Below the pieces are notes generated by a model. It did no database searches. It was not told the origin of the DNA and saw nothing but the letters and a program-made list of their open reading frames with translations. The position numbers were made by a program, and so were the translations under genes. Shown here piece after piece: positions 3,006 through 6,669 of a stretch of DNA of 64,000 bases; positions within the stretch are counted from its first letter, which is position 1, and each line of letters begins with the position of its first letter. This DNA comes from Halorubrum aethiopicum (lineage in GTDB: Archaea; Halobacteriota; Halobacteria; Halobacteriales; Haloferacaceae), in NCBI RefSeq assembly GCF_001542905.1, contig NZ_LOAJ01000001.1, positions 1,364,001 through 1,428,000 on the forward strand, read 5' to 3'.

Positions 3006-3770
3006 CTACGCGTCGGACTCGACCGTCTCCTCCGCGGACTCGTCGGGGTCGGCCTCGGCCTCGTCGCTGAGGCGGCGCTCAGCCTCCTCGCGGTCCTCGG
3101 GGTAGCCCACGTCGATGCGCCAGCCGTCGAGGCCGATGGCGTCGATGGTACGGCCGGATTGGATGAGCAGATCGACCGCGTCGCTGATCTCGTACTCGCC
3201 GCGGTTCGAGGGCTGGACGAGGTGACACGCGTGGAAGATCGCGGGCGAGAAGGTGTAGAAGCCGGTCATCACGAGGTTGCTCGGCGGGTCCTCGGGTTTC
3301 TCCACGACGTCCGTGATCTCCCCGTACTGGTTGGTGTCACACACGCCGTATCTGGAGGCCTCCTCCCACGGGACCTCCTCGACGAGGAAGGCGGCGTCCG
3401 CGCGGTCCTCGCGCTGGCGGCGGACCACGTCCTTGAGGTTCGCTTGGAATATGTTGTCGCCGAGGATGAGCATGAAGTCGTCGTCGATGTGCTCCTCGGT
3501 GGTGAGAAGCGCGTGGGCGAGCCCCTTCTGCTCGCGCTGGTGGGTGTAGGTGATCGGGACGCCCTCGTAGGCGTCGCCGTAGTGGTCGATGATGACCTCC
3601 TTCATGTAGCCGACGACGACGATGAGTTCGTCCGCGCCGAGATCGATGAGCTGATCGAAACAGTGGGTGATGAGGGGTTTCCCGTTCACTTCGACCATTC
3701 CCTTGGGCTTGTCATCGGTCAGTGGCCGGAGGCGCGTGCCCTTGCCGGCCGCGAGTACGACGGCTTTCAT
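3006..3770 (-). CDS. Sugar-1-phosphate nucleotidyltransferase (RmlA/AglF-like)
   Basis: A 254-residue NTP_transferase that should join a sugar 1-phosphate to a nucleoside triphosphate, giving an activated sugar and pyrophosphate. The phosphate-binding signature GKGTRLRPLTDDKPKG is at residues 9-24 and LILGDN, with the metal-binding aspartate, is near residue 100. It is short and lacks the left-handed beta-helix acyltransferase tail of longer archaeal relatives, ending instead in an acidic tail. Its paralogue is at 20487-21191 on the other side of the glycan island. The enzyme is probably a UTP:glucose-1-P or dTTP:glucose-1-P transferase, but the nucleotide is not certain. Confidence 0.88.
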   Translation of the reverse strand: MKAVVLAAGKGTRLRPLTDDKPKGMVEVNGKPLITHCFDQLIDLGADELIVVVGYMKEVIIDHYGDAYEGVPITYTHQREQKGLAHALLTTEEHIDDDFMLILGDNIFQANLKDVVRRQREDRADAAFLVEEVPWEEASRYGVCDTNQYGEITDVVEKPEDPPSNLVMTGFYTFSPAIFHACHLVQPSNRGEYEISDAVDLLIQSGRTIDAIGLDGWRIDVGYPEDREEAERRLSDEAEADPDESAEETVESDA

Positions 3771-3800: not shown

Positions 3801-3951
3801 GGATTCTGTCTTCGGGGATCGGACGGCAGCACGGGCACGAACGGTTCTCGATCACGCGGACGGTCCGGCGTGAGTGGCACGCTCGCATTCCGACCCGGAC
3901 GAGCGAACCGCGACCCCGCGGTTTTTGTCCTCGCTTCCCGTCGTCTCGTCC

Positions 3952-6669
3952 ATGAACGTCAACGTCGTCGGCAGCGGCTACGTGGGAACGACGCTCGCCG
4001 CCTGTCTGGCGGAGATGGGCCACGAGGTCACGGCCATCGACATCGACGAGTCCGTCGTCGAGACGATAAACGAGGGTCACGCACCGCTTCACGAGCCCGG
4101 CCTCGACGACCTGCTCGCAGCGCACGTCGGCAGCCGGCTGCGAGCGACGACCTCGTACGCCGACCTCGCGGACGCGGACCTCACCTTCCTGGCGATCGGC
4201 ACTCCGTCGAACCCCGACGGGAGCATCGATCTGGGCCCGCTGTCGGCGGCGGCGGAGATGGTCGGCGAGGCGCTCTCCGATCTCGACGGCGACCGTGAGC
4301 ACCTCGTCGTCGTGAAGTCGACGATCACGCCGCCGGGTCTCGGACAAGTTCGAGAGGCGCTCGCGACCGGGCTCGGTGACGGGGCCGGCGAGGTGGAGCT
4401 CGCGACGAACCCGGAGTTCCTCCGTGAGGGGACCGCCGTTTCGGACTTCCGGAACCCGGACAAGATCGTCTTCGGGACGGAGTCGGCGTCGCCGCTCGCG
4501 ACGTTGGAGGAGCTGTACGCACCGCTGATCGAGTCGACGGACAGCCCGGTCGTCCGGACGGACCCGGAGACGGCGATGCTGATCAAGTACGCCAACAACG
4601 CCTTCCTCGCGACGAAGATCTCGCTCGCGAACGACCTCGGGAACGTCAGCAAGGAGTTCGGGCTCGACGCCTACGAGGTGATGGAGGCGGTCGGGCTCGA
4701 CGACCGGATCGGCGAGCGGTTCCTGCGGTCGGGGGTCGGCTGGGGTGGGAGTTGTCTCACCGGTGATCAACGAGTATTGGCGAAAGACGACGACGGAACT
4801 CGATTCCTGACGTTCGAGGAGTTCTTTGGGCGATACGTGAACGAGGAGACCGAAAGTGTGGATGATGTCTCCGTGCTCAGTTACGACGAGAGCGGAAACG
4901 GCACGTTCAAATCAGTTCTTGAGGCAACTCGCCGTGAATATGATGGCGAATTGTGTCGAATCAGAACCAAGATGAACAAGGAAGTGACGGTTACGGACGA
5001 CCATCCGATGCTCGTCGTTGATGGCGATGATGTCCTCGTTCGAACGGCTGAATCACTGACGGAAACGGACCGAATTCCGGTGTACACGGACATCACTGTC
5101 GATCCGATTGGTCACTTCGATCTGATCGATCTCGTCGTTGGCGATCCGGATTTCCCGGCCGAGAAGGTGTATCTAAAACCGACGTTCGACCTCGCTGATA
5201 GAAAATCCCATCTACGGAACGTCCTCGAGGAGTACAATCGACGACAGAGCTACGATCGCGTCCGCGAGTTCTGCCGCAAGAATTACCTTCCGCTCGACGT
5301 GTTCCTTGAGTTCGAAAACCAACTCGACTTTGATCGGGGGGACGTCTCGCTATACACCACCGTTGGCGGCGGACAGACCTACGTCCCGGCGATCATCCCC
5401 GCTAATGAGGCGTTCTGGCGGTTCGTGGGCTACTATCTCAGCGAAGGACACATCAACGACGATGATTCCGGACACGGATCAACGACGCGTCGACGCGTCA
5501 TACTGAGTTTCCATCCTACGGACGAACCCGAATACGTTTCGGACGTTGAGTCGTATTACGAATCGTTAGGAATTCGATACACTACGAGCCGGCGAGACAC
5601 GACGAGACAGATCGAGATATCGAGCCGAATATTCGCTCGGTTCATCGAAGATCTCGGTTGCGGGACGGGTTCTTATTCAGCCGCGCTTCCGGACGTAGTC
5701 TATCAGGAACCAGTACCACACCGAAAGGCCGTTCTGTCCGGTCTGTTCCGCGGTGACGGCCACATCGCATATCCGAATCATTCGAACGCCGTCGTCTACG
5801 ATTACGGATCCGTCAGTGAGGAGTTGATCGCCGGCATGCAGCTGCTGTTACACAGTATCGGGATCGTCCCGAGTTATAAGATGTCGCAGTCAGCCAAATC
5901 GACGACGCCAGCACACTTCCTTCGAGTGAGTTCCAAAGAACAGATCGACGAACTCAAAGATCTGTTTCTCGACGCTGACGTGGCGAAGATCGATCGACGG
6001 CTCGACAACTATGCGAAATCGATCGCACCTACCGGCCACACCGACGGGGGTACACACACGACGGTTCGTGTCCGAGACATCGAGACGATCGACTCGGAGG
6101 AGCCGATTCCCGTGTATTCACTAGAAGTCGCGGACACTCACACGTTCGTCACAACTGACGGGCTCGCAGTCCACAACTGCTTCCCCAAAGACGTCGACGC
6201 GCTTCGCGCCGCGGCCCGAGAACAGGGCTACGAGCCACCCTTGCTCGAGGCTGCCGTCGAGGTGAACGACAAGCAGCCCGAGCGCCTGCTCGCGCTGCTC
6301 GACGAGCACGTCGACGTCGCGGGCGAGCGCGTGGCCGTCCTCGGGTTGGCGTTCAAGCCCGGCACCGACGACGTGCGCAACTCGCGGGCGATCCCCCTGA
6401 TCGAGGGGCTGCTGGAGCGCGGGGCCGCGGTCGTCGGCTACGACCCCGTCGCGACCGAGACCATGCGGGAGGTCTTTCCGGATGTCGAGTACGCGGACTC
6501 GGCCGCGGACGCGCTCTCGGGCGCGTCGGGCGCGGTCGTCGCGACCGACTGGGACGAGTTCGCGGCCCTGGACGAGGAGTTCGACGCGATGGCCGAGCCC
6601 GTGGTCGTCGACGGCCGGCGGATCATCGAGCGGCGCGAGGGGATCACCTACGAAGGGCTGACGTGGTAG
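3952..6669 (+). CDS. aglM: UDP-glucose 6-dehydrogenase (AglM-like) interrupted by an intein
   Basis: This gene encodes a 905-residue precursor. Removing a 475-residue intein leaves a 430-residue UDP-glucose/GDP-mannose dehydrogenase, the normal family length. The enzyme oxidises UDP-glucose to UDP-glucuronate with two NAD+. VGSGYVGT (residues 6-13) binds NAD, the central helix region has YANNAFLATKISLAN, and the C-terminal domain carries GLAFKPGTDDVRNS. The catalytic loop GWGGSCFPKD is split by the intein just before its nucleophilic cysteine (residue 743 of the precursor). The start at 3952 places the Rossmann motif correctly; 26 upstream in-frame residues are not family-like. Host exteins are GC-rich, while the intein is plainly less so. 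Confidence 0.93.
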   Translation: MNVNVVGSGYVGTTLAACLAEMGHEVTAIDIDESVVETINEGHAPLHEPGLDDLLAAHVGSRLRATTSYADLADADLTFLAIGTPSNPDGSIDLGPLSAAAEMVGEALSDLDGDREHLVVVKSTITPPGLGQVREALATGLGDGAGEVELATNPEFLREGTAVSDFRNPDKIVFGTESASPLATLEELYAPLIESTDSPVVRTDPETAMLIKYANNAFLATKISLANDLGNVSKEFGLDAYEVMEAVGLDDRIGERFLRSGVGWGGSCLTGDQRVLAKDDDGTRFLTFEEFFGRYVNEETESVDDVSVLSYDESGNGTFKSVLEATRREYDGELCRIRTKMNKEVTVTDDHPMLVVDGDDVLVRTAESLTETDRIPVYTDITVDPIGHFDLIDLVVGDPDFPAEKVYLKPTFDLADRKSHLRNVLEEYNRRQSYDRVREFCRKNYLPLDVFLEFENQLDFDRGDVSLYTTVGGGQTYVPAIIPANEAFWRFVGYYLSEGHINDDDSGHGSTTRRRVILSFHPTDEPEYVSDVESYYESLGIRYTTSRRDTTRQIEISSRIFARFIEDLGCGTGSYSAALPDVVYQEPVPHRKAVLSGLFRGDGHIAYPNHSNAVVYDYGSVSEELIAGMQLLLHSIGIVPSYKMSQSAKSTTPAHFLRVSSKEQIDELKDLFLDADVAKIDRRLDNYAKSIAPTGHTDGGTHTTVRVRDIETIDSEEPIPVYSLEVADTHTFVTTDGLAVHNCFPKDVDALRAAAREQGYEPPLLEAAVEVNDKQPERLLALLDEHVDVAGERVAVLGLAFKPGTDDVRNSRAIPLIEGLLERGAAVVGYDPVATETMREVFPDVEYADSAADALSGASGAVVATDWDEFAALDEEFDAMAEPVVVDGRRIIERREGITYEGLTW
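4753..6177 (+). mobile_element. Intein with LAGLIDADG homing endonuclease in UDP-glucose dehydrogenase
   Basis: A 475-residue intein. It begins with Cys (CLTGDQRVL, block A), has the TDDH motif of block B within VTVTDDHPMLVV, and ends in block F/G (YSLEVADTHTFVTTDG, then LAVHN) followed by the +1 cysteine of the host. The penultimate His and terminal Asn needed for splicing are present. Two dodecapeptide motifs, YYLSEGHI (about 5431-5454) and LSGLFRGDGHI (about 5734-5766), keep acidic residues, so the DOD endonuclease may be active. Base composition and codon use are clearly different from both exteins, which fits horizontal homing. Insertion immediately before the catalytic cysteine means that enzyme activity depends on splicing. 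Confidence 0.95.

Follow-up and report, generated by a model that had tools for sequence, protein, structure and literature searches.

The aglM gene of Halorubrum aethiopicum, contained in the 64,000-nucleotide stretch of DNA analysed here (the window), is interrupted at positions 4753-6177 by an in-frame class 1 intein, the identification of which is far beyond chance. We are highly confident that it belongs to the known 'udp' allele and that it is an intein which splices itself out and homes. These activities (splicing, cutting of DNA and homing) are those that the established biochemistry of the family would predict. The features are as follows.

3006-3770, minus strand: AglF, UTP-glucose-1-phosphate uridylyltransferase (447 bits, cut-off 400)
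3952-6669, plus strand: aglM, UDP-glucose 6-dehydrogenase gene (frame open over 3874-6669, ATG at 3952)
3952-4752, plus strand: N-extein of AglM, from ATG to GGS (frame reading, Pfam, NCBIfam)
4753-6177, plus strand: class 1 intein of 475 aa with a LAGLIDADG homing endonuclease domain (frame, Pfam, NCBIfam, conservation, predicted fold)
4753-4755, plus strand: Cys1, the N-terminal splicing nucleophile (kept in all copies whose contig includes the intein start)
4993-5004, plus strand: block B, TDDH (T81 and H84 invariant)
5428-5451, plus strand: first LAGLIDADG motif, GYYLSEGH (acidic residue E231 invariant, 12/12)
5740-5763, plus strand: second LAGLIDADG motif, GLFRGDGH (acidic residue D335 invariant, 12/12)
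6172-6177, plus strand: penultimate His474 and terminal Asn475, block G (conserved in relatives)
6178-6180, plus strand: +1 Cys, predicted nucleophile of the C-terminal splicing step and, in the spliced enzyme, the catalytic cysteine (frame, alignment to solved UGDHs)
6178-6669, plus strand: C-extein of AglM, including the stop codon (frame reading, Pfam, NCBIfam)

Anatomy of the intein and of its host protein

The intein runs from TGT at 4753 to AAC at 6177, 475 codons in frame with zero stops. These are exactly the borders that a preliminary description had given for an intein in UDP-glucose dehydrogenase, and the residues that it had named (Cys1, TDDH, the terminal His-Asn, Cys+1 and the two acidic LAGLIDADG residues) are all present. 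The family matches agree: in Pfam, Intein_splicing (PF14890) scores 52 bits against a cut-off of 35.8 and LAGLIDADG_3 45 bits against 22.5, and the NCBIfam models intein_Nterm and intein_Cterm are both matched in aglM. Cys1, a TxxH block B (here TDDH) and the HN|C junction assign the intein to class 1. Residue conservation was assessed across 12 intein relatives, which retain T81, H84, E231, D335, H474 and N475, and also Cys1 wherever that end of the intein lies on the contig. The AlphaFold model of the intein (mean pLDDT 83.4, pTM 0.86) is matched over its whole length by PI-PkoII (2cw7, E 1.8e-25, TMq 0.67), TliVMA (7qss) and PI-PfuI (1dq3), with PhoVMA also among the matches, all of them inteins with homing endonuclease domains. 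Along with the PF14890 score above cut-off, the matches of this predicted model point to a HINT fold. PI-PkoII, TliVMA and PI-PfuI share with the window intein the HINT splicing fold and a two-motif LAGLIDADG domain, but they reside in other host genes and are 14-17% identical to it in the structural alignments.

The host gene is assigned to AglM by NCBIfam NF041297 (707 bits, cut-off 670), and its three UDP-glucose dehydrogenase (UGDH) Pfam domains are split around the intein. Spliced AglM aligns over its full length with the solved UGDHs 3vtf and 4a7p, GGSCFPKD falling on GGSCFPKD. The intein splits GGS|C, and the first residue 3' of it is in this alignment the Cys of that motif, the established catalytic nucleophile of the UDP-glucose dehydrogenase family. 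The insertion is thus directly before the catalytic Cys, as had been proposed, and this cysteine appears to double as the +1 splicing nucleophile of the intein. A search of the whole H. aethiopicum genome found neither a second aglM nor an uninterrupted copy of the site. Because the genome has no second aglM, splicing is required if AglM is used. The aglF gene adjoins aglM and encodes the preceding step of the pathway; its product, UDP-glucose, is the substrate from which AglM makes UDP-glucuronic acid. In Haloferax volcanii, AglF and AglM are both part of the pathway of N-glycosylation (PMC5867893).

Translation of aglM would give a single 905-residue precursor, expected to be inactive because the intein lies between the Gly-Gly-Ser loop and the catalytic Cys. 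Self-excision by the HINT domain would begin with an N-S shift at Cys1, followed by transfer to the +1 Cys, then by cyclisation of Asn475 and finally by an S-N shift, after which the +1 Cys would serve as the nucleophile of the mature enzyme. During gene exchange between cells, the LAGLIDADG domain would cut the empty aglM site of an intein-free allele, and repair from the invaded copy would insert the intein together with a short flank.

The 'udp' allele and its distribution

The type of insert and its site are already known, and the window intein is a further member of a catalogued allele. Soucy et al. (2014, PMC4071816) catalogued the 'udp' allele with 7 halobacterial members, 2 bacterial ones and 6 from other Euryarchaeota; Methanocaldococcus jannaschii (NP_248048.1, one of these 6), Thermococcus gammatolerans and Dictyoglomus are among the carriers. 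The same paper names it among the more ancient intein alleles and reports its halobacterial copies to be monophyletic. The M. jannaschii UGDH intein mentioned in the preliminary description is in the list of this very allele, the identity of the exact insertion base being taken from the allele definition of that paper. We find no difference in kind between the 'udp' allele and the window intein: the host enzyme is the same, the insert is full length with an endonuclease, and Halobacteria are included. A literature search on AglM inteins gave nothing relevant besides PMC4071816. The polB intein of Haloferax volcanii, for which homing via gene conversion was shown in vivo (PMC3024317), is likewise a haloarchaeal homing intein, but differs in gene and recognition site.

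A close copy of the intein (59-100% identity) is carried by 19 of 391 Halobacteria genomes, including Halorubrum halodurans, H. yunnanense, H. saccharovorum, Halorientalis, Halosimplex and Haloarcula. The proposed check for intein-free alleles was fruitful, as 305 of the 391 have an empty aglM site, among them the closest aglM genes (protein identity 92-95%) apart from that of genome G204; most Halorubrum relatives are without the intein. The insertion site, GGS|C...HN|CFPKD, is identical in all homologous loci with both junctions on the contig. The inteins in aglM of Halorubrum halodurans Cb34 (L034) and of G204 lie at this site and are 99% identical to the window copy, with few substitutions. 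Presence of the intein, placed as a label on the host-protein (extein) tree, changes 9 times, at least 8 of these changes being forced by well supported branches. Such a patchy spread, with an intact endonuclease, would fit homing.

Outside the class Halobacteria, a genome of the same phylum (G414, locus L105) has a same-site 'udp' intein, 53% identical. Its GC is host-like (0.34, in a low-GC genome), and it appears to be a fully ameliorated copy across the class border. A same-site relative with 31% identity occurs in a planctomycete MAG titled Singulisphaera (L044), from which all the haloarchaeal copies group apart on a tree with few outgroups. Searches of viral contigs and of plasmids found no copy of the intein, and those of phages gave matches at 28% only, in other genes. 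In the uncultured archaeon A07HR67 (L038), whose aglM bears the intein, similarity of the C-extein is lost about 10 codons past the intein, which is probably an assembly frameshift or gene decay.

Probable homing, selection and the age of arrival

Flank mismatches were counted on codon-aligned aglM between the window and the nearest intein-free allele, and they cluster on both sides of the intein.

4744-4752, plus strand: probable gene-conversion tract, upstream end (5/9 bases mismatched to the nearest empty allele vs 50/789 beyond, p=1e-4)
6178-6225, plus strand: downstream part of the probable tract (18/48 bases differ vs 33/441 beyond, p=8e-8)

The next two closest intein-free alleles show the same clustering, which is probably a short gene-conversion tract, such as homing would leave. 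With G152 as outgroup, the invaded pair has the derived state at 6 of the fixed sites and the empty alleles have it at 4, with 3 unclear; gain of the intein by homing is a simpler reading than its loss via replacement by an empty allele.

One might instead suppose a splicing intein whose endonuclease is dead, inherited vertically and occasionally lost through recombination with empty alleles. The ambiguous polarity of the tract would agree with this, as would the G204 copy, diverged like the exteins, and the deep divergence from the other intein copies. Selection on the endonuclease argues otherwise. Comparison of the window copy with other Halorubrum copies gives a dN/dS of about 0.09, both for the endonuclease region and for the intein as a whole, with synonymous distances near saturation; for two closer intein pairs the value of the endonuclease region is 0.07 to 0.08. 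Such low values, no higher than in the splicing region, indicate that the endonuclease is kept by selection, purifying selection acting on this part of the intein as well. Moreover, all copies are full length (469-490 aa) with no mini-inteins among them, both catalytic acidic residues are invariant in 12 sequences, and the distribution is patchy. A dead endonuclease is thus rather unlikely.

Far less probable is an intein kept as a switch, by which salt- or redox-dependent splicing would govern AglM and the UDP-glucuronate for N-glycosylation or exopolysaccharide. The identity of the catalytic Cys with the splicing nucleophile would suit such a role, and salt-dependent splicing is attributed to a Halobacterium salinarum intein (Reitter et al. 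2016, as cited in PMC10663303). Yet most Halorubrum relatives do without the intein, marks of regulation are absent from the sequence, and mobility alone accounts for the data; the version in which the shared cysteine acts as the sensor, so that salt or redox state controls the supply of UDP-glucuronate, has, if anything, a slightly smaller chance of being right. A broken aglM, whether pseudogene or assembly artefact, is refuted by the open frame with zero stops, purifying selection, the nearly identical copy (99%) in another assembly and orthologues in many genera.

As to the age of the intein, its composition does differ from that of both exteins, as first noticed (GC3 0.63 vs 0.91 and 0.94-0.95). 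This had been taken as a sign of recent arrival, an argument that we reject: GC3 drops relative to the host in 20 of the 22 haloarchaeal copies, in several families, the exceptions being L022, in which the host gene itself has low GC3, and L038, with its broken C-extein reading. The drop is therefore a lasting property of the 'udp' intein, and low intein GC is no clock for arrival in haloarchaea. G204 has the intein too, identical at 98.5% of nucleotides, and the exteins of the two have diverged to a similar extent; the intein therefore predates the split from G204 and is not brand new. It would have reached the lineage (or the sisters would have lost their copy) after the split from G014, G008 and G107, fairly recently in relative terms. 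Between the window copy and other Halorubrum copies, dS is 1.2-1.9 in the intein vs 0.5-0.6 in the exteins, so that a recent donor is not among the copies sampled.

We also considered the +1 codon as a mark of resistance to cutting. It is TGC in 22/22 invaded haloarchaeal genes vs 7/28 empty Halorubrum genes, but 156/305 empty-site genomes of the class also have TGC and the copies are not independent; we rejected this candidate, the simplest reading being that the codon travels along with the adjoining intein. Separately, many intein-free Halorubrum aglM genes (L045-L047, L050, L052-L058) have an AT-rich stretch just 3' of the empty site, with GC3 of 0.48 in the first four codons and about 0.92 further on. 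This stretch may be left over from an earlier conversion or loss, or may reflect synonymous change of the cutting site.

The significance of the finding, correct but ordinary, reaches little beyond annotation. It is a well-resolved case, with the nearest intein-free sisters known and a short recombination tract in the flanks, and is useful for tracing homing in Halorubrum.

Other inteins and a neighbouring gene pair

Two genomes of the same phylum, outside the class (G634 and G532; loci L106 and L107), have an intein of 489-490 aa in PurL, phosphoribosylformylglycinamidine synthase, at GIVRDVV|C...HN|CMGAQPIA. It is 24-30% identical to the 'udp' inteins over most of its length and may represent an old move of their lineage to another gene; the paper abstracts searched gave no recognisable report of a PurL intein. 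The H. aethiopicum genome has a sole other intein at the Pfam cut-off, of 473 aa, in the MCM helicase (L001, C1, near 942144-943538, minus strand), which follows GDPGTGK and ends in HN before Ser. Within the window, positions 2365-2993 hold a pair of genes for an MntA-like nucleotidyltransferase and a HepT-like RNase, a probable type VII toxin-antitoxin module.
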